The notes beneath the pieces were generated by a model. It saw nothing but the letters and a program-made list of their open reading frames with translations, was not told the origin of the DNA and searched no databases. This document shows positions 17,830 to 32,767 of a DNA stretch of 64,000 nt, in pieces. The stretch lies in the NCBI RefSeq assembly GCF_020552705.1, contig NZ_JAJBZG010000005.1:682001-746000 (forward strand). Direction: 5' to 3'. Each line of letters opens with the position of its first letter. Position 1 is the stretch's first letter. This stretch comes from Christiangramia sediminis (GTDB lineage: Bacteria > Bacteroidota > Bacteroidia > Flavobacteriales > Flavobacteriaceae). The position numbers were made by a program, and so were the translations under genes.

Positions 17830-17873
17830 TTGATAAGTATCATATTTTAGAAGTTATTCGTCCCCTATTTTTG
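17830..17873 (+). promoter_or_regulatory. FNR/CRP-type box plus -7 element for ric
   Basis: The 308-base gap 17668-17975 holds one clear signal. TTGATAAGTATCAT at 17830-17843 matches 9 of the 10 specified bases of the FNR consensus TTGATnnnnATCAA. The -7 element TATTTTTG (TAnnTTTG) lies at 17866-17873, 29.5 bases from the box centre to its first base. Placing the transcription start about 7 bases after that element puts the box near -42, the class II activator position. Confidence 0.7.
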
Positions 17874-17975
17874 TGTAATTCATTGATATAAAGTTCTGTT
17901 GTTCTAATCCAAAATATTTTATTCAGACTCCAGCGTTTTTATCACCACCTATTAGTAAAATTTAAATTATTTAAT

Positions 17976-18698
17976 ATGGAACTTACACCAGAAAGAACCG
18001 TCGCCGATTATGTTACTGAAAACATAAAAGCCTCCCACATCTTTAAAAAATACGGAATAGATTTTTGCTGTGGAGGTGGGATAAGTCTAGAAAAAGCCTG
18101 CGCAGATAAAGGAGTGGAATATTCTCAATTACTTGAAGAGCTTCAAAACCTTGATCTTACTGAAAGAAAAGGAGTTAGTTTTAATGATCTCCCTATTAAC
18201 GAGTTAATAGATTATATCGTTGAAAAACATCATAAATATGTTGAGGCTAATATTGGTCTACTTATACAGTACTCTTCTAAAGTTGCTAAGGTTCACGGAG
18301 CCAATAGCCCCGAATTAATCGAAGTGAACAAATTATTCCAGAAAGTGGCTGGCGAATTAGCCTCTCACCTAAAAAAGGAAGAACTTATTCTTTTCCCGTT
18401 TATTAAAAAAATGCTCATAGCAGAAAGAGAAGGAACTCCTATCAATATTCCTCATTTTAATACTGTGGAAAATCCTATTAAAATGATGGAAGACGAGCAT
18501 GAAGAAGCCGGTAATATCTTTAAGGAGATTGCGCGTATCACCAATAATTATACTCCCCCGGCTCATGCCTGTAATACTTACCGGGCGCTTTTTGATAAGC
18601 TTGATGAATTTGAACAGGATCTACACCAGCATATACATCTGGAAAATAATATTTTACATCCAAAAGCCTTAAAGCTGGAAAAGAAACTAAGATCGTGA
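17976..18698 (+). CDS. ric: Ric/ScdA/YtfE-type iron-sulfur cluster repair di-iron protein
   Basis: Cytoplasmic protein that restores iron-sulfur clusters damaged by NO or oxidants. The N-terminal ScdA domain has TVADYVTENIKASHIFKKYG and the conserved FCCGGG Cys pair; the C-terminal hemerythrin-like part supplies iron ligands in YIVEKHHKYVE, ELASHLKKEELILFPF, MMEDEHEEAG and LHQHIHLENNILHPKA. 240 residues, family-typical. Preceded by an FNR-type box and followed, convergently, by an Rrf2 regulator gene, fitting an NO-response role. Confidence 0.93.
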   Translation: MELTPERTVADYVTENIKASHIFKKYGIDFCCGGGISLEKACADKGVEYSQLLEELQNLDLTERKGVSFNDLPINELIDYIVEKHHKYVEANIGLLIQYSSKVAKVHGANSPELIEVNKLFQKVAGELASHLKKEELILFPFIKKMLIAEREGTPINIPHFNTVENPIKMMEDEHEEAGNIFKEIARITNNYTPPAHACNTYRALFDKLDEFEQDLHQHIHLENNILHPKALKLEKKLRS

Positions 18699-18721
18699 AG
18701 TTTTTAAAATATTAATAGAGT

Positions 18722-18779
18722 AGCTGTCTATAAAGTCTAAACAAAACTCGAATTTTAAATTCAACATTTTTAGACAGCT
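18722..18779. terminator. Hairpin between convergent ric and rrf2 genes
   Basis: Perfect 9-bp inverted repeat, AGCTGTCTA 18722-18730 and TAGACAGCT 18771-18779, with a 40-base loop that contains a smaller hairpin (GAATTT with AAATTC). A second pair, AAAGTCTA and TAGACTTT, extends around it into the end of the rrf2 gene. Likely a bidirectional terminator; the long arms also recall a tiny mobile-element end, without proof. Confidence 0.5.
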
Positions 18780-18786
18780 TTCTATT

Positions 18787-19218
18787 TTAGACTTTCAAGA
18801 AACCCAGGCCTGAATCCAGCCGGGAAGTAAGTTCAAGAATAGTCGTTTTTTCAAGCATCTTTTTAAGGTTGTTCCGTATTTCGGCAAAATCAAAATGTAT
18901 AGGGCAGGGATGATCTTCAGAACATTTTTCAAGACCTAATGCGCAACCGGTCATGATCGCATCACCGTCTATGGCTTTTACAATATCTGCGAGTACGAGT
19001 GTTTGGTTTTCGGGAGTAATGAAAAAGCCTCCTTGTGGTCCTTTTGCAGAATTTATTATATCCTGCTGAACAAGTTTCTGCAGGATCTTGGCCGTGAAGG
19101 CTTCGGGAGAATTTATGGCCGCGGCAATTTCTTTAAGACTCGTACGACGTTCTTTTTTAGATCCCCGTGCAATAAATAGACTGGCCCTTATTCCATATTC
19201 ACATGCTTTTGAAAACAT
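18787..19218 (-). CDS. Rrf2-family regulator, NsrR-like (iron-sulfur, probable NO sensor)
   Basis: 143-residue transcription regulator. N-terminal winged helix (MFSKACEYGIRASLFIA, then SPEAFTAKILQKLVQQDII and the wing SAKGPQGGFF) and three Cys at 92, 99 and 105 (GCALGLEKCSEDHPC), the spacing expected for an iron-sulfur-binding NsrR/IscR-type sensor. Context (Ric next door, nos operon, His-rich membrane protein divergent) favours NO sensing, but IscR-like or other Rrf2 roles remain possible. ATG 19218 was chosen over an upstream TTG at 19221. Confidence 0.85.
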   Translation of the reverse strand: MFSKACEYGIRASLFIARGSKKERRTSLKEIAAAINSPEAFTAKILQKLVQQDIINSAKGPQGGFFITPENQTLVLADIVKAIDGDAIMTGCALGLEKCSEDHPCPIHFDFAEIRNNLKKMLEKTTILELTSRLDSGLGFLKV

Positions 19219-19241
19219 CAAGAAAGATTTATAATCTCTGG

Positions 19242-19279
19242 AAAGGTAAAGGAAAAAGACAAATTTATCCTTTATCTTT
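19242..19279. promoter_or_regulatory. Inverted repeat, candidate operator of the Rrf2 regulator
   Basis: In the 106-base gap between divergent rrf2 and the gene at 19325, GGTAAAGGAAAAA (19245-19257) pairs with TTTATCCTTTATC (19264-19276) at 11 of 13 positions, and the match goes on for three more bases on each side. A palindrome placed over a divergent promoter next to a regulator gene is a typical autoregulatory site (inference). Confidence 0.45.
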
Positions 19280-19324
19280 TTTTATTTTATTCGTACAAAT
19301 TTTAATTAATCAATAGGAGTTTTT

Positions 19325-20536
19325 ATGCCTGTTAGAATGTTGAAACGTCATACTATTATTGCCCTTATCTATTTTATGATCATTGCAATATTAGGAGTGC
19401 TTCTCAGGTTTTTTGCCATAACCGATATCCCGGTGAGCTATAAATACATTGTTCACACACATTCGCATATTGCACTTTTAGGTTGGGTGTACACAGCGCT
19501 AACCACAGTTATTTATTTTTCCTTTTTGCGTTCCCAACCCATTAAAAATAAATACCGTATTATTTTCTGGTTTACCCAGGTCACTATTGTAGGGATGTTG
19601 CTTACTTTTCCTTTTACCGGCTACGCCCTGTTTTCAATAATTTTTTCCAGCCTTTTTCTTATCGCCTCTTACTGGTTCGTCTATTTCTTTTTTAAACACT
19701 GTCCTAAAAGCTTAAGAAAAACAGGTTCGTATAAGTTAATACGAATCTCTCTGTGGTATATGGTCATTTCCAGTATCGGTCCCTGGGCTCTTGGCGTTAT
19801 TATGAATACTGCGGGCAGTGGTTCCACTTGGTACCGTAATGCGATCTATTTTTATTTACATTTTCAATATAATGGTTGGTTTATCGTCGCTCTTTGCGGA
19901 ATTTTTCTGTATATCCTGGAGAAAAGATCTTTCATAATTCCTCAAAAGCTTTTTGACAAATTTTATTATTTGCTGAATGCGGGCGTGATCCTCACATTTT
20001 TTCTGTCTTTATTATGGATGCGTCCACACTGGTCCTTTTATCTTCTAGCCTTGATAGGTGGAGTATTTCAATTGATCGCTTTTGGAGTGCTTTTCAGGGC
20101 AATTTATTCTAAAGCTATTTTCGCTTTTAAAAGCCTGTCTCCAATGCTTATCTTTTCTATCAGGCTGGTTGTTTTCTTATTATTCGTAAAACTAATTGCC
20201 CAGGTTTTAGGTTCGTTCCCGGTAATAGCAGAGAGTATTTTCACCAATCTTGATATGATCATTAGTTACATTCACTGGGTTTTTCTGGGGATTGTGAGCG
20301 TGCTTTTACTGGCATTCCTCAATAATTTTAAGCTTCTGAAATTAACAAGAACAGAATTATACATTTACCTTACTGGTTTCTTTTTAACTGAATTCCTTAT
20401 ATTCTTCAGAGGATTAGCAGGCCTTACCGGAATAGGGACTTTGGCTTCTATTCATTTGCTAATCAGCCTGGCCAGTATTATTATTTTTACCGCCCTTGCC
20501 CTGATCCTTGGAAGACAGCTTTTATCAAAGGATTAA
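19325..20536 (+). CDS. His-rich polytopic membrane protein, possibly haem-copper-oxidase- or NO-related
   Basis: 403 residues with about 12 predicted membrane segments, no export signal. Conserved-looking His residues: H44, H46 and H48 in YIVHTHSHIALLGW, H180 in YFYLHFQYNGWF, H236 in WMRPHWSF, H318 in YIHWVFLG, H378 in ASIHLL. The size, segment number and HSHIALLGW/YNGW motifs recall haem-copper oxidase subunit I and NO-related membrane haem proteins, but the His-x-His and His-His ligand pattern of true oxidases is absent, so I do not assign an enzyme. Divergent from the NsrR-like regulator and convergent with nosY; an NO-responsive role is plausible. Confidence 0.65.
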   Translation: MPVRMLKRHTIIALIYFMIIAILGVLLRFFAITDIPVSYKYIVHTHSHIALLGWVYTALTTVIYFSFLRSQPIKNKYRIIFWFTQVTIVGMLLTFPFTGYALFSIIFSSLFLIASYWFVYFFFKHCPKSLRKTGSYKLIRISLWYMVISSIGPWALGVIMNTAGSGSTWYRNAIYFYLHFQYNGWFIVALCGIFLYILEKRSFIIPQKLFDKFYYLLNAGVILTFFLSLLWMRPHWSFYLLALIGGVFQLIAFGVLFRAIYSKAIFAFKSLSPMLIFSIRLVVFLLFVKLIAQVLGSFPVIAESIFTNLDMIISYIHWVFLGIVSVLLLAFLNNFKLLKLTRTELYIYLTGFFLTEFLIFFRGLAGLTGIGTLASIHLLISLASIIIFTALALILGRQLLSKD

Positions 20537-20590: not shown

Positions 20591-21373
20591 TTAAAAATCT
20601 TTACTATTGGCAATTCTTCTGATTGAAATTAGTGGTATGCTTACCCATAGAATGAGCATAACTGATGATAAAATGATACCCTGGTTGGTGCCGAAAAACT
20701 TTTGAAAAACTGCTCCTGTATAACCCAGCAAGGCTGAAATATCCATTTTTAGTAGGATCAATACCCGCGAAAGGTCTATGGGATTAAGCATCGTAGCCAC
20801 CAGCGAAAATTTATCCAGCGGATAATCTTCGAAAAATACCAGTGACATCAGGAACAATCCGTCATAGATCACTGCCAGAAAAAGCCAGAGTAAAATGGCA
20901 TATCCAAAACCTTTTATTTTGTTGTCGTTGGTCAGGGCGATCACAAAAGCCAGGGCAGTGAAGATTAACGTAAGAAAGGCCCCGGTTATTAGCAGCAATG
21001 CGAAATTGCCTATCGCGTTGCTATTAAAGATGCCGTAGAAAATAAATGGTAAGCCCAATCCAATTACCAGGCTCATGGCCAGGGATAAAGCCACACCAAA
21101 GTACTGACCTAAAAAGATAGAGCTTCGTTTCACCGGTTGTGCAAGAAGCAGTTCTGTAAATTCCTTGGAATTATAATAATACATCACCCCAAAAATGGTC
21201 CCGATAAGAGGCACCAGAATTATGATCACATTCATAAGGGTGATCACTGCTTTGGAAAGGTCATTATTCAGGAAAAGAAGTACGAGCCCCAGCAGTAAAT
21301 AGAAAAGAAAATATACGTAGCTCCAGCGGCTTCGCATAAGGTCATAGAAACTGTATTTTAATATCTTAAGCAT
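20591..21373 (-). CDS. nosY: NosY, membrane subunit of the Nos ABC transporter
   Basis: 260-residue ABC-2-type permease with six hydrophobic segments (for example SYVYFLFYLLLGLVLLFL and NVIIILVPLIGTIFGVMYYY). With NosF and NosD it supports copper-centre assembly of N2O reductase, probably by supplying a sulfur species. The stretch YNSKEFTELLLAQPVKRS after the second segment is typical of the family. Its start overlaps nosF by 8 bases, and it is the last gene of the nos operon. A weak AT-rich hairpin (AAGTATA 20539-20545 with TATACTT 20552-20558) lies in the 54 bases before the convergent gene. Confidence 0.9.
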   Translation of the reverse strand: MLKILKYSFYDLMRSRWSYVYFLFYLLLGLVLLFLNNDLSKAVITLMNVIIILVPLIGTIFGVMYYYNSKEFTELLLAQPVKRSSIFLGQYFGVALSLAMSLVIGLGLPFIFYGIFNSNAIGNFALLLITGAFLTLIFTALAFVIALTNDNKIKGFGYAILLWLFLAVIYDGLFLMSLVFFEDYPLDKFSLVATMLNPIDLSRVLILLKMDISALLGYTGAVFQKFFGTNQGIILSSVMLILWVSIPLISIRRIANSKDF

Positions 21374-22076
21374 AACTAGTAGTTAAAATTGATGCTATCG
21401 CATGTTCAAAATCAGGCTGCTCGGTTTTGGCTTTTAATGCCGGAATGCCTCCTTTAAAATAGATCTTACCTTCCAGCAGAAAAACGATCTCATCTGCTAC
21501 TTCTTCTACAAAACTCATGATATGAGAAGTGATAAGAATGGTCTTTCCTTTTTGTTTCTCCTGGGTTATTAATTCTTTTAATCTTAAATGTGAAATAGGA
21601 TCAAGACCGGTAGTAGGTTCATCAAGGATGATCAGCGGACTATCGAACATGAAGGTTAAGACCAGGTTTACCTTCTGTTTGGTTCCTCCTGAAAGATTGC
21701 TAAGTTTCTTATCCAGAAATGCTTCGAGTTTGAAAAGCTCTATCAGTCTTTCGTCTTCCGCCTTTTTATAAGAACGAAGGTCTTTGATCATGCGAATAAG
21801 TTCGCGAACGGTGAGGTTTCCGGGAAAATTAGCGATCTGTGGCAGATAATCAATGTTATTGCGGTATTTCCAGTCATTTTTGACCGATTTTCCATTCAGT
21901 TTAATGCTTCCGGAATTTGGTATGACCATACCCAGAATGCTTTTTATCAAAGTGGTTTTTCCCGAACCATTAGGTCCAAGAACTGCAAAAATTCCTCCTG
22001 GTTCTATTTCCAGGTCGATGCCTTCCAGAACTTGATTTTTGCCGAATTTTTTATGTAGATTTTCAATAGATATCAT
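21366..22076 (-). CDS. nosF: NosF, ATP-binding subunit of the Nos ABC transporter
   Basis: 236-residue cytoplasmic ATPase. Walker A GPNGSGKTTLIKS near residue 34, Q-loop YLPQIANFPGNLTV, ABC signature LSGGTKQKVNL, Walker B LIILDEPTTGLDP, and the switch His in LITSHIMSF. Works with NosY and NosD in maturation of the NosZ copper site. It overlaps nosD by 14 bases upstream and nosY by 8 bases downstream, a tightly coupled set. Confidence 0.93.
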   Translation of the reverse strand: MISIENLHKKFGKNQVLEGIDLEIEPGGIFAVLGPNGSGKTTLIKSILGMVIPNSGSIKLNGKSVKNDWKYRNNIDYLPQIANFPGNLTVRELIRMIKDLRSYKKAEDERLIELFKLEAFLDKKLSNLSGGTKQKVNLVLTFMFDSPLIILDEPTTGLDPISHLRLKELITQEKQKGKTILITSHIMSFVEEVADEIVFLLEGKIYFKGGIPALKAKTEQPDFEHAIASILTTSYA

Positions 22077-23310
22077 GGGACACAGGTTTAAGTAAAGGAT
22101 TCTTATCCATTAGGTTATCTGGCGTAAATACCGGGGAGACCTTTTCCGAAAAATCAATAATATCAATAAAAAGGCTTCTTAAAAGAATGATAGTTTCCGG
22201 TGTTCGGTTCACGATATAGGAGAACAGTTTTACCGGCCGGTAGGGCACATCTCCAATCCCATTCCTGTTGAGGTCGTAGCCCGTGTAGCTGCTCCAGTAA
22301 TTTCTGTCAAAACTGTTATCATTCAATTTGCTGTTATAAGAAATATCGAATGAGTTGTTGAAGAAATTATTCCTGCTGAAAATATTGGAATAACAGGCTC
22401 CTCTAACTTTTATAGCCCAGCCATTATTCCTGAAATCATTATTGGTATAATTGATTCGGTTAGATCCTTCAATATTGATGCCCACCGTATTTTCTACAAA
22501 GTTGTTATTGATAATTTCAGAATCGTTTATTTCCTTCAGCAGCAATCCAAACGAGGCGGTGCCCCAGTTTTTTCTGAAAGTATTACCTTTCATGCTAATG
22601 AACTTGGAAAACATTACTGCCACACCAGCGCCATTGTTCTCAAAAACGTTATTCTCGTAGATATCATTATTTGAAAACATAAAATGAAGTCCATAGCGAA
22701 GGTTGTCTGAACTAATATTATCGCTGATCGTGATCTCATCTGAAAACTCCAGATAAATACCGTCTCTAACTCCTTCTATCCGGTTTCCCTTAACCTCTAC
22801 ATTCTGGCAGTACCAGAGCTGAATGCCGTTTCCGGAGCTGAATTCTTCCACAGCATCACCCATTACAGTATTGTTCAGGACCTTGCCATTTTTAGCTTTT
22901 TCGAGATATATTCCGAAGAAAAGTCGCTGTAATTTTAAATTCTGAAGCAGAAAATTTTCACTTTTCACCACCCGCAAGGCCGCATAATCTGTAGTATAAC
23001 TGGTTCCCACATTTACAATAGTGAGACCATTTATGGTAACATTATTAGCCTGAATGGTGATGATCTCCCCTTTGTTTTCTCCGTCTATCACCGTGTTTTC
23101 CTCGCCTATAATGGTTAGGGGTTTTGCGATCCCGATATTATATTCTTTATAGGTGCCTTTCTTAACATAAATGGTATCACCGGGATTAGCTGCTTCAATG
23201 GCAGATTTGATGCTCTTAAAGTTGCAACCTGAACATACTTCAATAGTATTGCTCCATCCTTTCCAGGAAAAAAGGAATAAGAAGAATAATATGTATCCTG
23301 TTGTTCTCAA
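22063..23310 (-). CDS. nosD: NosD, periplasmic copper-site maturation protein
   Basis: 415-residue exported parallel beta-helix protein with signal peptide (MRTTGYILFFLFLFSWKGWS) and CASH-type rungs: GENTVIDGENKGEIITI, NVTINGLTIVNVG, GDAVEEFSSGNGIQLWY, YLEFSDEITISDN and SNNDIYENNVFENNGAGVAV. Partner of NosFY in building the NosZ copper centre. A Cys pair (EVCSGCNFKS) sits just after the signal peptide. Its start overlaps the end of nosL by 4 bases and its end overlaps nosF by 14. Confidence 0.92.
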   Translation of the reverse strand: MRTTGYILFFLFLFSWKGWSNTIEVCSGCNFKSIKSAIEAANPGDTIYVKKGTYKEYNIGIAKPLTIIGEENTVIDGENKGEIITIQANNVTINGLTIVNVGTSYTTDYAALRVVKSENFLLQNLKLQRLFFGIYLEKAKNGKVLNNTVMGDAVEEFSSGNGIQLWYCQNVEVKGNRIEGVRDGIYLEFSDEITISDNISSDNLRYGLHFMFSNNDIYENNVFENNGAGVAVMFSKFISMKGNTFRKNWGTASFGLLLKEINDSEIINNNFVENTVGINIEGSNRINYTNNDFRNNGWAIKVRGACYSNIFSRNNFFNNSFDISYNSKLNDNSFDRNYWSSYTGYDLNRNGIGDVPYRPVKLFSYIVNRTPETIILLRSLFIDIIDFSEKVSPVFTPDNLMDKNPLLKPVSHDIY

Positions 23311-23741
23311 TTTTTACTTATATAAGGTTGGATCTCTAGCCAGTTAAAAAGCTGTCCGCTATAATCAGATTGCATCCGGCTGGCAGAATCGTCTACGCCA
23401 AAGGCCGATAAGTTGGCGCCCATCGGGCTGGATATCTGTTCGCTTACAAGATAAGTTGCGAATGTAGCGTCTATCAACTCGCCTGGATTATTATAATCGT
23501 TTACCAGTACCAGTTCAAAATCTTTAGCTGTATTGTCACTTTTATAATTGATCATACATTCTATCGCATCGAACTTGTAAACTTTTCCTTTGTTGGTCAC
23601 TAATTCTGAAGCGTGCTGCTTATCTACAATGGTCATTTTGCAATACTGGCATCCTTCCTCGCCATATCGTATAGGTTCAGGACCTACTTCGCAGGAGGTG
23701 AATAACACAGCCATTAAGAGTATATATATTAAGCGTCCCAT
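23307..23741 (-). CDS. nosL: NosL, copper-chaperone lipoprotein
   Basis: 144-residue lipoprotein (VLFTSCEVGPEP) that binds Cu(I) and delivers it to apo-NosZ. The NosL hallmark CQYCKMTIVDKQHASELVT follows the lipobox, and KVYKFDAIECMINY supplies another Cys and Met. Length is within the NosL range. It overlaps nosD by 4 bases, indicating coupled translation, and follows the membrane-protein gene at 23746 by only 4 bases. Confidence 0.92.
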   Translation of the reverse strand: MGRLIYILLMAVLFTSCEVGPEPIRYGEEGCQYCKMTIVDKQHASELVTNKGKVYKFDAIECMINYKSDNTAKDFELVLVNDYNNPGELIDATFATYLVSEQISSPMGANLSAFGVDDSASRMQSDYSGQLFNWLEIQPYISKN

Positions 23742-23745
23742 AATT

Positions 23746-24363
23746 CTAATTATTTGTTTCCCATTCCTTCTTTCCTATAAAAAAGGCAATTAGTGACAAG
23801 GCCATCCCCGCGAATAACATGTACGCTCCTGTATGAGGCCAAGAATCTACATCGAAATTCAACATTTTCTGGTGTCCGAATAAAGGCGGTTTATAGGTCA
23901 TTGGTGTCCCATCAGGATGCGTCATTTTCATGATAGCATTTGGATCCAGATCTGTTCCATATTCAGTAAGCCAGTTATTAAAATCATACATTCCAAGTAT
24001 GCCCAGCACACTCGTTAAAATTAACCATCCCAGGAACCACTTATAACTTAGCTTTCCAAAGAATCCAAGTATGCCAATGATCACTCCCAATGCTGCCATA
24101 CCGCCTATTACTATTGGGAATACTTCAAATTCCCACATTTCTTCAGGTTTTGGGATCTTTTTCATCCCGATGTAGTGATTAAGCCCGTCTATATTCTGAA
24201 TATCGAATTCATTAACTCCTTCGATTCCGGTGATATAAATGTTCATACCCATAGGATCCGGGTATTGTGGAGCACCCAGCATGATATTCCATAGTGGGAA
24301 TTTAAATAGGCCCAGCAGCAGTAGTGAACCTAAGATCATTATTATTCCGGCTTTTTTCATCAT
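23746..24363 (-). CDS. nos-operon membrane protein, function unknown (occupies the NosB position)
   Basis: 205 residues, four or so membrane segments (residues 5-22, about 82-102, 107-125 and 177-195). Between them is an extracytoplasmic loop with conserved-looking features: NIDGLNHYIGMKKIPKPEE and, later, MTYKPPLFGHQKMLNFDVDSWPHTG. The His, Met and Cys-free character could allow copper or haem contacts. Clade II nos clusters often carry a small membrane protein (NosB) just after nosZ; this gene holds that position, but homology to NosB is not shown. A second ATG at 24360 is equally possible as start. Confidence 0.7.
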   Translation of the reverse strand: MMKKAGIIMILGSLLLLGLFKFPLWNIMLGAPQYPDPMGMNIYITGIEGVNEFDIQNIDGLNHYIGMKKIPKPEEMWEFEVFPIVIGGMAALGVIIGILGFFGKLSYKWFLGWLILTSVLGILGMYDFNNWLTEYGTDLDPNAIMKMTHPDGTPMTYKPPLFGHQKMLNFDVDSWPHTGAYMLFAGMALSLIAFFIGKKEWETNN

Positions 24364-24379
24364 TATATTTTTTTATTAG

Positions 24380-24444
24380 AAAGGCGGGAGTACTTATTAA
24401 CCCCCGCCTTTGTAGAAATACATGCTCTTTGTATCATGTATTTC
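24380..24444 (-). other. Two hairpins directly after nosZ
   Basis: In the 97-base gap after nosZ there are two perfect inverted repeats: GAAATACATG 24415-24424 with CATGTATTTC 24435-24444, and AAAGGCGGG 24380-24388 with CCCGCCTTT 24403-24411. In the direction of transcription the second is followed by only TTTC, so read-through to nosL-nosD-nosF-nosY is likely. They could protect the nosZ part of the mRNA and lower expression of the maturation genes (inference). Confidence 0.55.
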
Positions 24445-24460
24445 CTCCTCTAACTAAACA

Positions 24461-26425
24461 TCAATCTTCACCTAAAGACCAGCTTAGGTCTATATTGGAA
24501 TCTTTGGGGGATACTCTTATATATCCCTGCATTTCCTGGTGTAAAGCGGAACAGAAATCTGTACAGTAGAATGGCCATACCCCAACTTTCTTAGGTTCCC
24601 AGGTAAGGGTTTTGGTTTGTCCCGGCATAATAAGCAACTCGGCATTATTGGCACCAATCATGGCAAAACCGTGAGGGACATCAAAATCCTGTTCGTGGTT
24701 AGTAATGTGGAAGTATACTTTATCGCCTACTTTAATTCCTTCAATATTATCTGGGGTAAAGTGGCTACGAATCATGGTCATATACACATGGACTTCGTTT
24801 CCATCTCTTTCCACTCTGGCATCTCCGTTTGCGATGGTAGCATACTCATGCTTGTTCTCTGCCAGTTTATAGATCTTCTGAGAATTCTCTTTGATGATTT
24901 CGGCTGGGATTCCTGCTGCATAGTGCGGTTCACCATGAGTTGGGAAATCCAGTAGAAGTTCCATTTTATCGCCCGAGATATCAAATAGCTGAGCCGAATG
25001 TTCCAACTCGGGTCCGGTGGGCAGGTATCGGTCTTTTGTGATCTTGTTCATGGATACCGCATATTTCCCAAAAGGATGCGCAGAGTTCCCACCAGGGATC
25101 ATCACGTGTCCAACCGAATAGTAATTAGGCTGACGGTCTATTACCTCCTGGGTTTCCACGTTCCATTTTACCAGTTCAGATGAGATAAAGAATGTAGTAT
25201 AAGCGTTACCCTTTCCATCAAACTCGGTGTGGAGAGGGCCTAAACCGGCCTGTTTTACAGTACCTGCTAACACATCTTCAAATTTTAAGATCGGGATACC
25301 GTAAGCATCACCATCAAAACGTTTGTTTTCAATGGCATCGATCATTTTTGTGAAGGAGTGAATGGTTAGATCGGCAGAAAGTTTCCCGTTCCCAATAATA
25401 TATTCACCAGATGGATCTACATCGCAGCCATGGGGTGATTTAGGAGTAGGGAGTAAAAATACTGCGCCTGGAACTTCGGTAGGATCTACCGTCAAAACCT
25501 CTTTTTTCATTGTAGAAGTAGCGGTGTGGGTATGGTCATCATACACATTATGCGCATATTCTGCCGGCATCATTTTTCCACCGCCATTGTTCACATACTC
25601 TTCGATTTTTTTCCAGTTTACCGCCGCGATAAAATCTTTATCATTCTGGGAAGCGTTTACTTCTAAAAGCGTATTGGCTTCTTCAGTATTATAGGTAGTA
25701 AAAAAGAACCATCCATGAGATTTTCCACGTCCGGGGTGAGAGAGGTCATAATCGAAGCCAGGCATGATTAACTGGAACTTGATATTCATACGACCTGTTT
25801 CTGGCGCAACACTAATAAAAGACAGCGTTCCCTTAAACTTACCCTTATACTCGTTTATAGGCATATCCTGCTGTGGTACAGGTACAGAGAAGCGGGTTCC
25901 CGCGACTACATACTCGGTATTTTCAGTTACAAATGATGAACTGTGGTTACCGGCTGAGTTTGGAACTTCAATAATTTCAGTAGTTTCAAACGTCTTTAGA
26001 TCAATTTTAGCGATCCTTGGGGTGTTGTTACCATTTATAAATATCCAGCGTCCATCCAGTTTTCCTTCGGTTTGGGAAATATCGGGGTGGTGGGAATCAT
26101 CCCAGGGAATAAAACCATGGGATGTATTTAACATGGGCTTTGTTTCTTCAGAATATCCGTACCCACTGGTAGGGAATTGTGAAAAAACAGGGATCTCTTT
26201 GAACATTCTGCCAGACGGTAAACCGTAAACGGTAAGGTTACCACTATAACCACCGGAAATAAAGGCGTAGAAATCATCATGTTCCCCCGGGGCCACGTAT
26301 ACTTTTTCAGCGGCGCTGGAAGCCAGGGCTCCACGATCTCCATTTTTTGAATTTTCACTGTTGTTACAGCTAAAGAAACTGGCTGATATTATCAGCGAGA
26401 ATATATAAAGAATTGAATTTTTCAT
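24461..26425 (-). CDS. nosZ: Nitrous oxide reductase NosZ, clade II type, lipoprotein
   Basis: Catalytic enzyme reducing N2O to N2 in the periplasm. 654 residues. The export signal is Sec/lipoprotein (SLIISASFFSC, Cys20) with no twin-arginine, a mark of clade II. CuZ-domain His-bearing motifs are visible: YDDHTHTAT, GLGPLHTEFDG, PGGNSAHPFGKY and HGEPHYAAG. The C-terminal cupredoxin has the CuA set WPFYCTDFCSALHQEM with Cys621, Cys625, His629 and Met632. No fused cytochrome domain, so electrons probably come from the cytochrome c gene at the operon head. It starts 19 bases after the FAS1 gene. Confidence 0.96.
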   Translation of the reverse strand: MKNSILYIFSLIISASFFSCNNSENSKNGDRGALASSAAEKVYVAPGEHDDFYAFISGGYSGNLTVYGLPSGRMFKEIPVFSQFPTSGYGYSEETKPMLNTSHGFIPWDDSHHPDISQTEGKLDGRWIFINGNNTPRIAKIDLKTFETTEIIEVPNSAGNHSSSFVTENTEYVVAGTRFSVPVPQQDMPINEYKGKFKGTLSFISVAPETGRMNIKFQLIMPGFDYDLSHPGRGKSHGWFFFTTYNTEEANTLLEVNASQNDKDFIAAVNWKKIEEYVNNGGGKMMPAEYAHNVYDDHTHTATSTMKKEVLTVDPTEVPGAVFLLPTPKSPHGCDVDPSGEYIIGNGKLSADLTIHSFTKMIDAIENKRFDGDAYGIPILKFEDVLAGTVKQAGLGPLHTEFDGKGNAYTTFFISSELVKWNVETQEVIDRQPNYYSVGHVMIPGGNSAHPFGKYAVSMNKITKDRYLPTGPELEHSAQLFDISGDKMELLLDFPTHGEPHYAAGIPAEIIKENSQKIYKLAENKHEYATIANGDARVERDGNEVHVYMTMIRSHFTPDNIEGIKVGDKVYFHITNHEQDFDVPHGFAMIGANNAELLIMPGQTKTLTWEPKKVGVWPFYCTDFCSALHQEMQGYIRVSPKDSNIDLSWSLGED

Positions 26426-26444
26426 GATTGTTCTAATTAGGATC

Positions 26445-27017
26445 TTATTTAGTTTCAGGGATTATTACTTTGTCTACTACGTGTACAATACCATTCCCGG
26501 CAGGGACGCTGGCAATAATTTTAGCTCCACCAACATAAACATCCTCACCTTTTACTTCCACAGGAATACTAAGGTCACTTGCCTGGCCAAGTTTCTTGAA
26601 TTTCTTCAGAAATTCCTTATCATATTTTCCGGGGGTTACATGGTGTTTAAGTATTTGTGCCAGTTTCACCTTGTTTTCTGGTTTTAGGAGATCCTCAACG
26701 GTCCCATCTGGTAAGGCTGCGAAAGCTTCATCAGTGGGTGCGAAAACCATCAGGGGTCCTGCATTTACCAGCACATTTTCCAGTTCGGCCGCCTGTACAG
26801 CCGCTACCAGGGTCTTATGATCTTCAGAGCCTATAGCAATGTCAAGAACCGTAGGCTGGGATAAATCATCTTTAATAAAAGCCTGTCCCTGTCTTTCCAG
26901 GGAGGTTTCCTCGCTAACTTCCTCCGTACTTTCAGGTTCCGCTTCTTCGTTCGTACGACAGGATATAACTCCTGCGATGAGTACTGCCAGAAATAGGATT
27001 TTTAAAATGGATTTCAT
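26445..27017 (-). CDS. FAS1 (fasciclin) domain lipoprotein in the nos operon
   Basis: 190-residue lipoprotein (IAGVISCRTNEE, Cys20). A single FAS1 domain covers about residues 55-190: TVLDIAIGSEDHKTLVAAVQ, the H1 motif GPLMVFAPTDEAFAALP, ILKHHVTPGKY, and the H2-like GNGIVHVVDKVIIP. FAS1 domains are mostly adhesion or ligand-binding modules; a role in N2O respiration is not established. Its place between the cytochrome c gene and nosZ argues for a periplasmic helper or assembly function (inference). Confidence 0.85.
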   Translation of the reverse strand: MKSILKILFLAVLIAGVISCRTNEEAEPESTEEVSEETSLERQGQAFIKDDLSQPTVLDIAIGSEDHKTLVAAVQAAELENVLVNAGPLMVFAPTDEAFAALPDGTVEDLLKPENKVKLAQILKHHVTPGKYDKEFLKKFKKLGQASDLSIPVEVKGEDVYVGGAKIIASVPAGNGIVHVVDKVIIPETK

Positions 27018-27050
27018 AATGGTTGATTTTTGGTGATTCCAATTTCATTC

Positions 27051-27554
27051 TTATTCCAGGGTTCTGAAATACTCCAGTATCTGTCTGGCTTCTTCTTCGG
27101 TTAGATTCTGATTTGCCATGGGAGATCCATTATGCTCTATTAACAATTGCTTCGCGATAGGATCTTTAAGGATCATCTCTTCAGGATTGAGCATCATATT
27201 CATCACCCATTCCGGAGATCTTCTGTCAAGTACTCCTTTTGGCGCCGGGCCAATGAATTTTTTGTCGGGCTTATGACAAGCAAGACATTTAGAATCGAAG
27301 ATCACTTTTCCCTTGGTTGCCATGGATTGGTCGATCTCATCTGGTATTTCCAGGTTTTTAACGGGTCCGATCCCTTTATTGCTCATATCATTCATATTTA
27401 CAGAGGAAGAAACAGGTTCAGTCTTTTTGACCTCTTCTTTCTTAGAATAATTTCCGAGTTGAACTTCTTCTGATTCTTTTTTCTCTTCACTGTTACCGCA
27501 ACTAACGAGAGCGACCAGCATCATCGCCCAAAAACTTTTTATTATATATTTCAT
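27051..27554 (-). CDS. Monohaem cytochrome c lipoprotein, probable electron donor to NosZ
   Basis: 167-residue lipoprotein (MLVALVSCGNSE, Cys19) with a charged linker followed by a class I cytochrome c domain: haem motif CLACHKPDKKFIGPAP near residue 90 and the axial Met in GSPMANQNLTEEEARQILEYF near the C-terminus. First gene of the minus-strand nos operon, 34 bases before the FAS1 gene. It likely carries electrons from the quinol-oxidising complex to the CuA site of NosZ (inference from context). Its promoter has an FNR-type box. Confidence 0.9.
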   Translation of the reverse strand: MKYIIKSFWAMMLVALVSCGNSEEKKESEEVQLGNYSKKEEVKKTEPVSSSVNMNDMSNKGIGPVKNLEIPDEIDQSMATKGKVIFDSKCLACHKPDKKFIGPAPKGVLDRRSPEWVMNMMLNPEEMILKDPIAKQLLIEHNGSPMANQNLTEEEARQILEYFRTLE

Positions 27555-27580: not shown

Positions 27581-27626
27581 CAAAAGTAGGTGGGAAGCCG
27601 AAGAGAAAATATGACAAATATCATAT
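27581..27626 (-). promoter_or_regulatory. FNR-type box plus -7 element for the nos operon
   Basis: ATATGACAAATATCATAT at 27609-27626 is an 18-base near-perfect palindrome. On the minus strand the -7 element TACTTTTG occupies 27588-27581, starting 29.5 bases from the palindrome centre, the same geometry as at ric. The start codon of the cytochrome c gene is 27 bases further on. This lies in the 298-base divergent gap 27555-27852. Confidence 0.7.
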
Positions 27627-27792: not shown

Positions 27793-27836
27793 CTGATATT
27801 TCTCATTTTTAGGCTCCGCACTCCCGGGTATTTTTG
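27793..27836 (+). promoter_or_regulatory. FNR-type half-conserved box plus -7 element for hemN
   Basis: CTGATATTTCTCAT at 27793-27806 keeps 7 of 10 FNR consensus bases. The -7 element TATTTTTG is at 27829-27836, again with 29.5 bases from box centre to its first base. The hemN ATG is 17 bases downstream. Confidence 0.55.
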
Positions 27837-27852: not shown

Positions 27853-29217
27853 ATGGATTCAGCATTAATTGAGAAATATAATATCCCGGGGCCTCGATAC
27901 ACTAGTTATCCCACAGTGCCTTATTGGGACGACCAGAAATTTTCTTTAAAGAAGTATAAGGAAACGTTGATCTATAGTTTTAAAGAGTCAAACCAGGAGC
28001 AGGGGATCAGTCTTTATATCCATCTGCCTTTTTGTGAAAGTCTGTGTACTTTTTGCGGATGTAATAAAAGGATCACTAAAAATCACGGGGTTGAAATTCC
28101 ATATATAGAGTCTGTCCTCAAGGAATGGAAATTATATTTGGATCTTCTGGACGAAAAGCCAATTATTAAAGAACTTCATCTGGGAGGAGGGACACCTACT
28201 TTTTTTTCTGCTGAAAACCTGGAATTGCTGCTTAACGGAATTTTTAGATATGCCGTAAAAGCTGAAAATGCTGAATTCAGTTTTGAAGGTCATCCGAATA
28301 ATACTAACCGGCAACATCTTGCTACCCTGTCCTCTTTCGGTTTTAAGAGATTGAGTTACGGAGTACAGGATTACAATGAGAAAGTGCAAAAGGCAATTCA
28401 TAGAATTCAGTCTTTTGAACAGGTTAAAAATGCTACTATTTCAGCCCGGGAATTAGGTTATGAATCAGTGGGGCACGATATCATATTTGGTTTACCATTT
28501 CAGGAGGAAATGCACATTGTGGAAACGCTCTCTAAAACAATAGAACTAATGCCAGACCGGATAGCTTTTTATAGTTATGCGCATGTTCCATGGATAAAAG
28601 GAAACGGTCAAAGAGGTTTTAAAGATGAGGATCTGCCAGGTCCTGCTGAAAAGAGGAGACAATATGAAACGGGTAAAAAAATGCTGCTTAGAGCCGGCTA
28701 TGTTGAAATTGGAATGGATCATTTTGCCCTCCCCTCAGATTCGCTTTCCAAATCTGTAGAGAATAAGAGCATTCACAGGAATTTTATGGGGTATACTTCT
28801 TCGAAAACCCAGGTAATGATAGGATTGGGAGTATCGGCTATCGGAGATAGCTGGTATGGTTTTGGACAGAATGTAAAAGGTGTGGAAGAATATCAGAATC
28901 TACTAAAAAATGATATTTTACCCATCTTTAAAGGGCATATTTTAACTGAAGAAGATCTTAAGATTCGCGAACATATCTTAAATATAATGTGTCAGTTAAA
29001 GACCAGTTTGCCTAAGGACGAAATGAATTCTGAAGCTTATAAAAAGATGCGCTCAGGTTTACATGAAATGGAAGCAGACGATCTGGTTATGTGGAAAGAT
29101 AACGAGCTACTGGTAACAGAAAAAGGCCGGGCTTTTTGCAGAAATATAGCCATGGCCTTTGATCTTAGACTTCAAAGAAATAAACCGGAACAAAGATTAT
29201 TCTCTATGACCATTTAG
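27853..29217 (+). CDS. hemN: Oxygen-independent coproporphyrinogen III oxidase (radical SAM) HemN
   Basis: Converts coproporphyrinogen III to protoporphyrinogen IX without O2, securing haem supply for cytochromes in low oxygen. 454 residues. N-terminal GPRYTSYPTVPYW and the radical-SAM cluster motif in YIHLPFCESLCTFCGCNKR are diagnostic of true HemN, as are LHLGGGTPTFF, RLSYGVQDYNEKVQKAIHR and GHDIIFGLPFQ. The C-terminal HemN domain is present. Its last 4 bases overlap the convergent thioredoxin-like gene. Expression is probably anaerobically induced, judging by the upstream box. Confidence 0.95.
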   Translation: MDSALIEKYNIPGPRYTSYPTVPYWDDQKFSLKKYKETLIYSFKESNQEQGISLYIHLPFCESLCTFCGCNKRITKNHGVEIPYIESVLKEWKLYLDLLDEKPIIKELHLGGGTPTFFSAENLELLLNGIFRYAVKAENAEFSFEGHPNNTNRQHLATLSSFGFKRLSYGVQDYNEKVQKAIHRIQSFEQVKNATISARELGYESVGHDIIFGLPFQEEMHIVETLSKTIELMPDRIAFYSYAHVPWIKGNGQRGFKDEDLPGPAEKRRQYETGKKMLLRAGYVEIGMDHFALPSDSLSKSVENKSIHRNFMGYTSSKTQVMIGLGVSAIGDSWYGFGQNVKGVEEYQNLLKNDILPIFKGHILTEEDLKIREHILNIMCQLKTSLPKDEMNSEAYKKMRSGLHEMEADDLVMWKDNELLVTEKGRAFCRNIAMAFDLRLQRNKPEQRLFSMTI

Positions 29218-29834
29218 GACGCGGGTTTTAACCGGTGCTCGTTGAGCTGTATTTCCATATTGGAAATTTCAGAAATAATTTCCTGTCCTTTATCCCGGTT
29301 ATACCAGATCTGTATTTCTTTTTTTATCTGGTCGTCTATTCTTCCATGCTCTTTTTTATAGTCTTCCATTATTTTGGTGGCTGCTTTAGATCGTGGTCCC
29401 CAAGTCGTAAGAATATTTAAATTTTCATAGGTAAGGATCAGTTTAGGAATAGAGCGGCTGCCGTTGGTTAAAAACAGGTCCATAAATTCCGGATTTTCAT
29501 CCCTGAGCAGAATTCTGAGTTCAATTTTCGGACTTAACTCCGCTAATTTATTCAAAACAGGGATTGTTTGTGCACCATCCCCGCACCAGGATTCGAGAAG
29601 GACTATCCAGTATTGTTTTTGATCTATTTGCTGAAAAACCTCCGCCGTATTTTCAGGAATTTCTACCTTCGCATCCATTCTTTTCATCCGGCTGAAATTC
29701 AATTTGGTGAAGTTCATTCTTTCCACACTCCATTCGCCAGTATTACTATCTTTCAGGATAAGTTGTTCCACCATACTTTTATAAGCGGGGTAACTCATCG
29801 ATTTGTCTAAACTATTTTTAATTATCGATTGCAT
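29214..29834 (-). CDS. Thioredoxin-fold protein with a single active-site Cys
   Basis: 206-residue cytoplasmic protein. The central region, WIVLLESWCGDGAQTIPVLNKLAEL and the later SIPKLILTYE (cis-Pro loop), shows a thioredoxin fold, but the active site is WCGDG with only one Cys, so it is not a normal dithiol oxidoreductase. Helical extensions flank the domain. Convergent with hemN and divergent from the cco cluster; it shares the strong palindrome at 29912-29929. Possible roles are peroxide or NO-linked redox handling; none is proven. Confidence 0.75.
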   Translation of the reverse strand: MQSIIKNSLDKSMSYPAYKSMVEQLILKDSNTGEWSVERMNFTKLNFSRMKRMDAKVEIPENTAEVFQQIDQKQYWIVLLESWCGDGAQTIPVLNKLAELSPKIELRILLRDENPEFMDLFLTNGSRSIPKLILTYENLNILTTWGPRSKAATKIMEDYKKEHGRIDDQIKKEIQIWYNRDKGQEIISEISNMEIQLNEHRLKPAS

Positions 29835-29883: not shown

Positions 29884-29958
29884 TAAAATTAACCGGATTA
29901 GGATTTATAAAATATGATGAAGATCATATCTGCTGAAATCTGCGAATTTTTAATTTTC
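29884..29958. promoter_or_regulatory. Bidirectional FNR-type box between thioredoxin-like gene and cco cluster
   Basis: ATATGATGAAGATCATAT at 29912-29929 is perfectly palindromic apart from its 4-base spacer and is the best site in the window. For the minus-strand gene, TAATTTTA (29891-29884) starts 29.5 bases from the centre; for the plus-strand gene at 30004, TAATTTTC (29951-29958) starts 30.5 bases away. One dimer site could drive both directions. Confidence 0.7.
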
Positions 29959-30219: not shown

Positions 30220-30237
30220 TAGGTAAGCGTTGGAAAC

Positions 30238-30281
30238 ATGATTTCAGTCATTTTTTAAGCGGAAGTAAAATTGAATTTTTG
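30238..30281 (+). promoter_or_regulatory. FNR-type box plus -7-like element for ccoI
   Basis: ATGATTTCAGTCAT at 30238-30251 keeps 7 of 10 consensus bases; AATTTTTG at 30274-30281 differs from TAnnTTTG in one base and begins exactly 29.5 bases from the box centre. The ccoI GTG start lies 24 bases beyond. Confidence 0.5.
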
Positions 30282-30305
30282 ACCCGGATTTAAACTGGCT
30301 CAAAA

Positions 30306-32708
30306 GTGGATTGTTATCATTGTGGAGAAGAATGCAGAAGTGAGACACTGCTCTTTCAGGAAAAATATTTTTGTTGTAGCGGTTGTAAAACTGTATTTGA
30401 GATCCTTGATAGCAACGATCTTTCTTATTATTATGATCTGGAAAAATCTCCCGGAATCTCTCCTAACCTGAAAGAAGGTAAGTATGACTATTTGGAGAAT
30501 ACCGAAATTCTGGATAAACTACTTGAATTTGATCACGGGAATACCCAGATCGTATCTTTTACCATCCCCTCAATTCATTGTAGTTCCTGTATCTGGATAC
30601 TTGAAAACCTGAATAAGCTTCATAAGGGCATTAAAAGTTCACAGGTAGATTTTCCTAAAAAGACGATCAGGCTAAGTTTTTCTTCGGAAGAACTAAGCCT
30701 GAAGAATCTGGTGCTACTACTTGTACGTATTGGTTATGAGCCAAATATTTCATTAGACAATTTTGAAAAAAAGGAGAACGGTATAGACCGAAGTTTAATT
30801 TATAAACTGGGAGTGGCGGGTTTTGCTTTTGGCAATATCATGTTCCTTTCTTTTCCTGAATATTTTGAGATCAATGAATTCTGGTTAGAGCAGTTCAAAC
30901 ATTTATTTCGCTGGTTAATGTTCAGTTTTTCTTTGCCGGTGGTATTTTATTCCGGGAAAGACTATTTCATATCTGCCTATAAAGGACTTAGATCTGGGAT
31001 TCTTAATATAGATGTTCCCATAGCCCTGGGAATTAGTGTACTTTTTTTAAGGAGTACGGCGGAAATTGCCCTGGACCTGGGCACCGGATTCTTTGACAGC
31101 CTCAGCGGACTCGTTTTCTTCCTGTTACTGGGGAAATTCTTTCAGCAGAAAACCTATTCATTTTTATCCTTCGAAAGAGATTACAAATCCTATTTCCCTA
31201 TTGCGGTGACCCGGATCTTTACTGAAGAAGGAAAAACCCGGGAAGAACAGATACAGGTTTATAAGATAGAGAAAGGAGACAGGATCATTATTAGAAACGA
31301 GGAGCTTATCCCCATGGATGCTATCCTTATTAAAGGAAAGGCGAAAATAGATTACAGTTTTGTGACCGGTGAAGCAGAACCAGTTACAAAGATAAGTGGC
31401 GATAAACTCTATGCAGGTGGAAGACAGCAGGGAGGTATTATTGAACTTGAGGCCCTAAAGCAGGTGCAGCAAAGTTATCTTACTCAATTATGGAGTGATG
31501 AGGTTTTTAGCAAAGACAAGAATTCTGTTTTCCAGAATCTTACCAATCAAATTAGTAAACGCTTTACCTATGCTGTATTGAGCATAGCCATACTATCTTC
31601 AGCTTTCTGGATATTTTATGATGCATCAAAAGCCTGGAATGTCTTTACCGCAGTACTTATCATCGCCTGTCCCTGTGCTATCGCTTTGGCTGCTCCCTTC
31701 ACCCTGGGAAATATATTGAGGATATTTGGAAAAAATCACCTGTATCTTAAAGACGCCAATATCATCGAGCAAACTGCCGAAATTGACACCGTGGTTTTTG
31801 ACAAGACCGGGACGATAACTACCAATGACCGGAGCCGTATTGAATATGAAGGTATAGAGCTCACCAACGAGGAAAAGCAATTGCTTAGTGGAAGTTTGCG
31901 GGCTTCAAATCACCCCTTAAGCCGTTCCCTGTATAATATTCTGGATAAACATAATATTTCTACCCCGGAGAGTTTTACCGAACATACCGGGCAGGGACTG
32001 GAAACCACTTACAAAGATCTCCGCCTTAAGATCGGTTCGCCGGCTTTCGTCAATCAAACTGAAACCATTGATTCTGGAGTTCCTAATAAGAAAAAACCTG
32101 AAAAAACTTCAGTTTATATAAGTGCGAACGATCAATACAAAGGTTGTTTTAGTTTTCATAATTCTTACCGGGATGGACTTGCTGAATTATTCAGAAGACT
32201 TTCTGAGGACCGGGAACTTATCATCCTTTCGGGAGATAATGATGGGGAACGGGAAAGACTACAGGAAATAGTGCCGGAAGGAACCAGAATGTTCTTTAAT
32301 CAGAAACCGGGAAATAAACTTCAGTTCATTAAAGATCTTCAGCAAAAGGGTAGAAAGGTGATGATGGTGGGTGATGGATTGAATGATGCCGGAGCACTGG
32401 CTCAGAGTAACGTGGGTATAGTGATTTCTGAAGATATCAACGTTTTTTCACCGGCCTGCGATGGAATTCTGGGTGCAAAACGATTTAAAGATCTGGGTAA
32501 GTTTTTTGATCTCTCTGGCAAGGCTATCAAGGTTATAAAATTAAGTTTTTTACTATCCCTTTTCTATAATCTCATAGGACTTGGTTTTGCCGTATCCGGA
32601 AATCTTATGCCGGTGGTTGCAGCTATTTTGATGCCTTTGAGTTCCATTAGCATCGTGGTATTCACTACGCTGATGACACAATTCATATCTAAAGATCTAA
32701 AAAAATAA
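30306..32708 (+). CDS. ccoI: CcoI, copper-transporting P1B-type ATPase for cbb3 oxidase assembly
   Basis: 800-residue P-type ATPase exporting Cu(I) for the CuB site of cbb3 oxidase. The N-terminus has a Cys-rich zinc-finger-like part (CYHCGEECRSE, KYFCCSGCKTVFE) and a heavy-metal domain (IHCSSCIWILENLN). Membrane metal site ACPCAIALAAPF, phosphorylation motif VFDKTGTITTND, and hinge GDGLNDAGAL are all intact. The start must be GTG 30306: the upstream in-frame triplets reach a stop at 30291 with no ATG between. First gene of the canonical cco order. Confidence 0.93.
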   Translation: MDCYHCGEECRSETLLFQEKYFCCSGCKTVFEILDSNDLSYYYDLEKSPGISPNLKEGKYDYLENTEILDKLLEFDHGNTQIVSFTIPSIHCSSCIWILENLNKLHKGIKSSQVDFPKKTIRLSFSSEELSLKNLVLLLVRIGYEPNISLDNFEKKENGIDRSLIYKLGVAGFAFGNIMFLSFPEYFEINEFWLEQFKHLFRWLMFSFSLPVVFYSGKDYFISAYKGLRSGILNIDVPIALGISVLFLRSTAEIALDLGTGFFDSLSGLVFFLLLGKFFQQKTYSFLSFERDYKSYFPIAVTRIFTEEGKTREEQIQVYKIEKGDRIIIRNEELIPMDAILIKGKAKIDYSFVTGEAEPVTKISGDKLYAGGRQQGGIIELEALKQVQQSYLTQLWSDEVFSKDKNSVFQNLTNQISKRFTYAVLSIAILSSAFWIFYDASKAWNVFTAVLIIACPCAIALAAPFTLGNILRIFGKNHLYLKDANIIEQTAEIDTVVFDKTGTITTNDRSRIEYEGIELTNEEKQLLSGSLRASNHPLSRSLYNILDKHNISTPESFTEHTGQGLETTYKDLRLKIGSPAFVNQTETIDSGVPNKKKPEKTSVYISANDQYKGCFSFHNSYRDGLAELFRRLSEDRELIILSGDNDGERERLQEIVPEGTRMFFNQKPGNKLQFIKDLQQKGRKVMMVGDGLNDAGALAQSNVGIVISEDINVFSPACDGILGAKRFKDLGKFFDLSGKAIKVIKLSFLLSLFYNLIGLGFAVSGNLMPVVAAILMPLSSISIVVFTTLMTQFISKDLKK

Positions 32709-32723
32709 AAGAACCCCTCAAAG

Positions 32724-32767
32724 CTGACAATGGTCATTTTTTAGACCCTGCTCTCAGGATACTTTTA
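32724..32767 (+). promoter_or_regulatory. Variant FNR-type box plus -7-like element for ccoS-ccoNO
   Basis: CTGACAATGGTCAT at 32724-32737 has the perfect TGAC-4-GTCA dyad, a variant of TGAT-4-ATCA. TACTTTTA at 32760-32767 (7 of 8 to TAnnTTTG) begins exactly 29.5 bases from its centre. The ccoS ATG is 21 bases downstream. Confidence 0.5.

Follow-up and report, generated by a model that had tools for sequence, protein, structure and literature searches.

Background

At class II promoters of Escherichia coli, the activator is centred at position -41.5, and the -10 hexamer starts at -12. Here we consider a set of promoters of a flavobacterium, Christiangramia sediminis, in which an inverted repeat, TGAYnnnnRTCA, is separated by a constant distance from TAnnTTTG, an unusual core promoter element. 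Six such pairs are found in one stretch of 64,000 nucleotides (contig NZ_JAJBZG010000005.1, positions 682,001 to 746,000 of the forward strand), hereafter the window, and the same genome encodes the candidate readers of these sites, proteins in which a response-regulator receiver is fused to a Crp/FNR-type DNA-binding part, one of them next to a FixL-like kinase.

In rhizobia and Caulobacterales, FixL, FixJ and then newly made FixK act in succession; FixJ and FixK are separate proteins joined by transcription of fixK, and cco and heme-synthesis genes are among the targets (PMC7888657 and PMC4999443, in their available parts). The system of C. sediminis is alike in its targets and in its components, a PAS kinase with the heme histidine of FixL, a receiver, and a Crp/FNR part that, like FixK, has no CxxC motif. 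It is unlike in that the receiver and the Crp part form one chain that lacks a LuxR-type output domain, whereas FixK is a protein of its own, and in that the box is (C/A)TGAY and not TTGAT. Joining a FixJ-type receiver to a FixK-type DNA-binding part in a single chain would do away with the synthesis of new FixK through FixJ as a separate step.

With the class II promoters of E. coli FNR and of FnrN, the sites described here share the dyad core and, apparently, the -41.5 centre, and standalone homologues in other genera of the family carry an FNR-like set of cysteines. In contrast, no Cys-bearing homologue was detected in the genome of C. sediminis, the outer T of TTGAT is rare, and the core promoter is TAnnTTTG. 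Within the same phylum, HcpR2 of Bacteroides is also a member of the Crp/FNR family linked to nitrogen-oxide genes, but its predicted box is GTAACnnnnGTTAC and its predicted regulon is, in most species, hcp only (PMC1274295, available portion). The sigma-A promoters of Flavobacterium psychrophilum have TAnnTTTG between -12 and -5 relative to mapped start sites, and the cbb3 and heme genes of this organism are induced under oxygen limitation; Fnr and Crp have no occurrence in the main text of that study, whose available part describes no activator site (PMC9723704). Among the open-licence papers listed in literature searches, titles and abstract openings revealed none that deals, for Flavobacteriaceae, with this promoter geometry or with a heme-PAS kinase paired with a receiver-Crp fusion, and the accessible parts of PMC12040651, PMC13370916 and PMC8510549 describe neither the fusion-kinase system nor the geometry.

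Six promoters with one spacing

A first-pass annotation of the window had proposed six promoters with a fixed distance between the dyad centre and the element. All six pairs are indeed found at the proposed places, on both strands (Table 1), with 29.5 bases from the centre to the element, that is, with a gap of 23 bases between the end of the dyad and the start of the TAnnTTTG-like element on the transcribed strand. The dyad is complete (8/8) at five sites and scores 7/8 at hemN, and the element scores 6/6 at ric, nos and hemN and 5/6 at the thioredoxin-like gene, ccoI and ccoS-ccoNO; the ric site is a perfect match, with T after the dyad and G closing the element. In the window as a whole, five of the seven perfect dyads have an element of at least 5/6 at gap 23, and at most one has it at any other gap from 5 to 60.

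When considering such short motifs, chance has to be weighed, since AT-rich DNA could yield dyads and boxes at any spacing, and single matches do arise, at about 1.6 per gap per genome. In the whole genome (3.25 Mb), the strict pair occurs 65 times at gaps 8-38; 17 of these matches fall on gap 23, and the other 30 gaps share 48, with 0-5 each (mean 1.6). The excess (Poisson P ~2e-12) bears out the earlier contention that chance agreement is unlikely. Moreover, 12 of the 17 matches carry two bases that were not searched for, a T right after the dyad and a purine ending the element; the remaining five miss at least one of the two: three are inside reading frames, one points toward the FixL-like kinase gene (see below) and one stands upstream of a Usp gene. 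Relative to the average of the remaining gaps considered, gap 23 is enriched about 11-fold in this genome and about 8-fold in the family (see below). Taken together, the spacing excess and the unselected bases refute chance for the set, for which its probability is negligible, but not for each single match.

Table 1. Coordinates of the promoter pairs, of the genes behind them, and of the fusion genes. Positions are those of the window except for the last two lines.
Feature	Position	Strand	Remarks
ric promoter	17831..17873	+	dyad TGATaagtATCA 17831-17842; element TATTTTTG 17866-17873
nos cluster promoter	27581..27623	-	dyad 27612-27623; element TACTTTTG 27588-27581
hemN promoter	27794..27836	+	dyad TGATatttCTCA (7/8) 27794-27805; element TATTTTTG 27829-27836
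Thioredoxin-like gene promoter	29884..29926	-	dyad 29915-29926; element TAATTTTA 29891-29884
ccoI promoter	30239..30281	+	dyad TGATttcaGTCA 30239-30250; element AATTTTTG 30274-30281, first T absent
ccoS-ccoNO promoter	32725..32767	+	dyad TGACaatgGTCA 32725-32736; element TACTTTTA 32760-32767
ric, iron-sulfur cluster repair di-iron protein	17976..18698	+	NCBIfam TIGR03652 above cut-off; ScdA_N + hemerythrin
nos cluster	20591..27554	-	cytochrome c first; NosZ, NosL, NosD among members
Cytochrome c, nos cluster	27051-27554	-	leads cluster
Sec-type NosZ	24461-26425	-	TIGR04246 above cut-off
nos cluster protein without family match	23746-24363	-	
hemN, oxygen-independent coproporphyrinogen III oxidase	27853..29217	+	TIGR00538 above cut-off
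Thioredoxin-like protein	29214..29834	-	Pfam Thioredoxin_9
ccoI-type heavy-metal P-type ATPase	30306..32708	+	ATPase-cat_bd domain (Pfam)
ccoS-ccoNO-ccoP-ccoG	32788..37868	+	Pfam FixS, COX1+FixO, FixP_N, FixG_C
ccoS	32788-32982	+	
ccoN-ccoO	32985-35180	+	
ccoP	35398-36360	+	
ccoG	36447-37868	+	
Receiver-Crp fusion, first	C1:103918-104955		outside the window
Receiver-Crp fusion, second	C3:602353-603399		outside the window

Promoter position and consensus

Because TAnnTTTG lies at -12 to -5 from the start sites mapped in F. psychrophilum (PMC9723704, available part), and because the element begins 29.5 bases from the dyad centre at all six sites, the centre would fall at -41.5, the class II register. 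By analogy with that other species, from which the numbering is borrowed, the earlier estimate of a centre near -42 can thus be refined, with the core element starting at -12. The spacing is nothing out of the ordinary, being that of E. coli class II promoters, and it follows that the TA of TAnnTTTG occupies the place of the TA in TATAAT.

A consensus was derived from 256 distinct sequence segments near fusion genes (80 named loci, loci L035-L037 and the window itself). It reads A-n-(C/A)-TGAY-n-W-W-T-RTCA-T-n-T-T-T-T ... TA-n-(T/A)-TTT-(G/A), in which the search itself dictated TGAY, RTCA, TA and TTT; the T-rich tract after the dyad would take the place of the -33 element. The column before TGA is C in 0.64, A in 0.30 and T in 0.03 of the segments, so that the outer T of the upstream half site of the FNR box TTGATnnnnATCAA is generally missing, the ric site of the window, where it is present, being an exception. 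Around the 80 named fusion loci there are 245 sites at gap 23, as compared to between 0 and 16 at any other gap in the range 5-60. At gap 23, the two columns that were not selected hardly vary, with T after the dyad in 242/245 sites and a purine ending the element in 243/245; at the control gaps 8-22 and 25-60, which exclude gaps 23 and 24, the same columns give 130/216 and 112/216, respectively.

Conservation in the Flavobacteriaceae

The first-pass annotation had suggested a scan of related genomes for the pair. Among 120 Flavobacteriaceae genomes, one per genus, there are 1833 matches at gap 23, in comparison with 1582 at gaps 16-22 (mean 226) and 1622 at gaps 24-30 (mean 232), i.e. about 230 per nearby gap; a reversed-pattern control yields 139 matches at gap 23. 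Individually, 83 of the 120 genomes exceed the background at P < 0.001.

The sites are also conserved at orthologous promoters. For hemN and ccoNO, 60 genomes gave 43 and 48 matches, respectively, of which the 30 best loci each were compared, with the genome of C. sediminis included: a gap-23 site is found within 300 bases at 26/30 hemN loci (25/29 without this genome; the runner-up, gap 17, occurs at 4 loci) and within 1200 bases at 28/30 ccoNO loci (27/29; runner-up gap 36, 10 loci). The comparison for nos, ccoI and the thioredoxin-like gene covered nine genomes, four of which have nosZ and three of these four the cytochrome gene. The site is present in all 8 relatives that have ccoI and in all 3 that have the nos cytochrome; in the fourth nosZ genome (G001), neither a match to the cytochrome gene nor, within 450 bases of nosZ, a site was found. 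In each of the 8 relatives (L279, L281, L283, L287, L289, L290, L292, L295), the first T of the ccoI element is replaced by A or C, as in the window, so that the weak match is itself conserved and may tune ccoI expression. Thus, the proposal that an FNR/FixK-type class II geometry ties together hemN, nos, ccoI and cco stands. The two other proposed members do not share this conservation: ric has a gap-23 site at only 4 of 30 loci (30 of 31 matches in 28 genomes, two genomes contributing two loci each), the window being one of the four and the other three sites being imperfect, and the thioredoxin-like gene has none in 2 relatives. Both were dropped as conserved regulon members, their sites being retained for the genome of C. 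sediminis only.

These distributions bear on the nature of the signal. A nitric oxide (NO)-responsive Crp/FNR protein of the DNR/NnrR/HcpR type, governing nitrosative-stress and N2O genes, could account for the perfect sites at the ric and nos promoters, the relatives of known structure of the Crp part of the fusion include DNR, and heme PAS domains can bind NO. Such a reader is nevertheless improbable, given that cco and hemN are the best conserved members, that ric is not conserved, and that the box predicted for HcpR2 of Bacteroides is different (PMC1274295, available portion).

The receiver-Crp fusions and the FixL-like kinase

A search for the Crp/Fnr gene, also suggested in the first-pass annotation, reveals four HTH_Crp_2 genes in the genome. 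Two of them encode fusions of a receiver with cNMP_binding and HTH_Crp_2 domains, and both fusion genes sit among gap-23 sites. The first directly follows a gene for a PAS histidine kinase, the PAS domain of which has its best matches among solved structures in FixL and DosP. We inspected the best 80 named loci of at least 562 relatives of the fusion; among the matches listed, the closest named ones belong to Christiangramia/Gramella, with 78-84% identity. The kinase gene is located directly upstream of the fusion gene in 78 of the 80 loci by an adjacency rule and in one more (L083) by inspection (79/80), and L082 is situated at the end of a contig. The residue aligned with His200 of FixL is His in 78/78 kinases and in that of C. 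sediminis, and the one aligned with Arg220 is Arg in 77/78 and, again, in C. sediminis; as judged from these alignments, the kinase is FixL-like and its PAS domain is predicted to bind heme.

The fusion proteins themselves are strongly conserved. The phospho-acceptor Asp, the acid pocket and the Lys of the receiver are kept in 82/82 sequences, as are the E, I and R of the recognition helix, the only change at the receiver and helix positions compared being one Ser-to-Thr replacement; E and R of the helix were also part of the frame-finding pattern, which dropped none of the 80. The output part consists of cNMP_binding and HTH_Crp_2, without the LuxR-type helix-turn-helix of FixJ; the Caulobacter-type FixK model gives 63 bits (cut-off 300). 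The N-terminal CxxC motif expected of an iron-sulfur FNR is absent from all 8 fusions examined, which include both of C. sediminis; two fusions from other families (L216, L232) each have a single Cys, in either of the two remaining Cys columns, and the helix Ile is not universal, being Ser in L216, a class-mate fusion.

The remaining two HTH_Crp_2 genes encode Crp/FNR-like proteins (L003, L004) that, being present in the same genome, might read the sites instead. In FNR/CRP proteins, a Glu of the recognition helix contacts TGA. The helices of L003 and L004, SRVVVSR and TRAVVNR, lack this Glu, and the two proteins are only weakly similar to the Crp part of the fusion (E 2e-4 and 2e-6), so that this alternative appears very remote.

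Standalone homologues and co-occurrence with the sites

Another contender is an iron-sulfur FNR with a cysteine cluster, which would read the sites as FNR boxes, leaving the fusions to control something else. Such proteins do occur in the family: all 14 standalone homologues that were hand-picked from the family matches and fetched (two of them from G025 and G038, which also have a fusion) share a CxxC motif, two further Cys columns and the E..IR helix, and in several genomes (G008, G012, G028, G038, G044) such genes are no more than 6 kb away from ccoNO; a median of 11 sites persists in genomes where the Crp part has a match and the fusion is missing. Among the four HTH_Crp_2 genes of the C. 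sediminis genome, however, no such protein was found: two encode the fusions, placed among gap-23 sites, and the products of the other two have different helices and do not bear the Cys set. Furthermore, the Cys set is not general among standalone homologues. Four from family f47 and one from family f8 (L228) have the same four Cys columns and the helix, but three from family f2 of the same order (L225, L226, L231) have the helix and none of the FNR-like Cys, and their genomes contain 12-13 sites each; the notion that all standalone homologues bear Cys was rejected accordingly, and the Cys are evidently not needed for the promoter code. For C. sediminis, an iron-sulfur FNR is a weak contender and an unlikely reader. 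The earlier attribution to an FNR-type regulator therefore holds insofar as the reader would be of the Crp/FNR kind; the best candidate is a receiver-Crp fusion beside a FixL-like kinase, not an iron-sulfur FNR.

Across the family, the number of gap-23 sites follows the presence of these regulators. The median is 18.5 in the 54 genomes with a full fusion, 11 in the 47 genomes with only a Crp-part match and 1 in the 19 genomes with neither (first two groups versus third, P 3e-9; G002, which has the receiver part only, was not counted as having a fusion). Many of the 19 genomes without a regulator are small, but three of the 19 with 3.0-3.4 Mb (G039, G073 and G087) also have zero sites.

The case for and against the fusions as readers

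Taken together, site geometry, the conservation of sites and of residues, gene order, and the co-occurrence of regulators and sites make it quite likely, in our judgement, that the sites are class II low-oxygen promoters, read most likely by one or both receiver-Crp fusions under the FixL-like kinase. The following scheme can be envisaged, in which binding, phosphotransfer, the heme, the oxygen (or NO) signal and the direction of the effect (activation) are all putative. A drop in oxygen would release the heme-PAS kinase, which would phosphorylate the receiver of the fusion. The phosphorylated fusion, as a dimer of the Crp/FNR superfamily, would bind (C/A)TGAY-N4-RTCAT centred at -41.5 and activate the RNA polymerase with the primary sigma factor, sitting on the TAnnTTTG box at -12 to -5. 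This would turn on the cbb3 oxidase and its assembly genes, and the same switch would serve anaerobic heme synthesis, N2O respiration and stress proteins (Usp, Hsp20).

Several observations weigh against this interpretation. A correlation of regulators with sites does not establish the identity of the binding protein, the genome of C. sediminis encodes two further Crp/FNR-like proteins, although their helices are without E..IR, and one genome, G048, has 31 gap-23 sites and no regulator homologue found, although, being 82% complete, it is likely to miss the respective contig. The second fusion (L002) has no adjoining kinase, its neighbours being genes for Usp and a DUF3298 protein. Arg206 and Ile215 of FixL are not kept in the aligned kinases, and the kinase of C. 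sediminis scores 103 bits with the NCBIfam FixL equivalog model, the cut-off of which is 850. The sites at ric and the thioredoxin-like gene are not conserved, as described above. The promoter of the kinase-fusion operon has the pair at gap 23 in none of 77 relatives (those of the 78 with enough upstream sequence) and at gap 24 in 15 of them, and dyads beside this operon often seem, by eye, to be oriented to the divergent gene. Finally, a CRP/FNR homologue of Flavobacteriales, which may or may not be an orthologue of the fusion or of the standalone proteins, has been predicted to be a MalR-like carbon sensor (PMC8510549, available parts).

Autoregulation of the kinase-fusion operon was considered and dropped: the gap-23 pair of C. 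sediminis at this place is without both unselected bases, and none of the 77 relatives has one. Between the FixL-like kinase gene and a divergent gene that looks Usp-like by eye there is a dyad (L037:8334-8376, and the kinase promoters of loci L074-L153).

Spread beyond the family

The geometry had been put forward as a rule for Bacteroidota at large. In a sample of 392 genomes of the phylum, assessed by site counts and the reversed-pattern control, the excess at gap 23 is strong in the family of the window and in one distant family, moderate in some branches of its order and class, and small or missing in most other groups; a phylum-wide rule was thus rejected, and the promoter code is common in Flavobacteriaceae and patchy elsewhere. 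In the distant family f47, four genomes (G387, G422, G495, G499) have 25-36 gap-23 sites, with 0-1 in the reversed controls, and carry an FNR-like standalone protein that has the Cys set. Full fusions were also found in five of the class-mates searched (G168, G218, G244, G485, G503), and three genomes without sites (G122, G133, G319) show no Crp-part match at 1e-15.

Other sites and neighbouring genes

Outside the window, the matches with both unsearched bases precede Usp genes at L035:12147, L036:793 and L039:881, with a fourth, by eye, at the edge of L036; further ones are upstream of genes for Hsp20, an MlaE-type ATP-binding cassette (ABC) operon, a protein of 138 residues that matches no Pfam family, and a protein resembling a globin by eye. 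At least five Usp genes (Pfam) are near or downstream of sites in L035, L036, L037 and L039, with Hsp20 and PPDK close by, surroundings resembling a dormancy or hypoxia stimulon. About 350 bases downstream of a full gap-23 site, at L037:4469-4861 (~102.5 kb of C1), a protein of 130 residues is encoded that looks, by eye, like a truncated globin and has no match in Pfam or NCBIfam.

In the window, the nos cluster, presumably a single transcript, also encodes a fasciclin-domain protein, NosL, NosD, an ABC ATPase and a likely ABC permease (Pfam below cut-off). The P-type ATPase is taken by us to be CcoI, as is conventional for its domain make-up and its position before ccoS; ccoN and ccoO are fused in one reading frame. 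A gene for an Rrf2-family regulator (18787-19221, - strand) adjoins ric and might provide a second, NO- or iron-sulfur-linked control of it. Directly upstream of ric (15702-17667), there is a pair of genes for a histidine kinase and an OmpR-type response regulator, additional to the kinase-fusion system.

Implications

Flavobacteriaceae have unusual core promoters, and their activators appear to be little studied. The class II register shared by TAnnTTTG and TATAAT indicates that the geometry of activator and polymerase has been kept despite the different box. We further consider it moderately likely that many Flavobacteriaceae have replaced or supplemented the iron-sulfur FNR by a shortened two-component oxygen switch, a FixL-like heme-PAS kinase together with a single fusion of a FixJ-type receiver and a FixK-type part, retaining the same box and class II position, so that different genera would use the Cys-bearing FNR, the fusion, or both. 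This would amount to a natural experiment in which one promoter code is read either by a Cys-FNR or by a receiver-FNR under the control of a heme kinase. The code offers a one-line rule predicting low-oxygen promoters across many genera of a major family of marine and soil bacteria, and it predicts which sensor turns on N2O reduction and the cbb3 oxidase in which flavobacteria.

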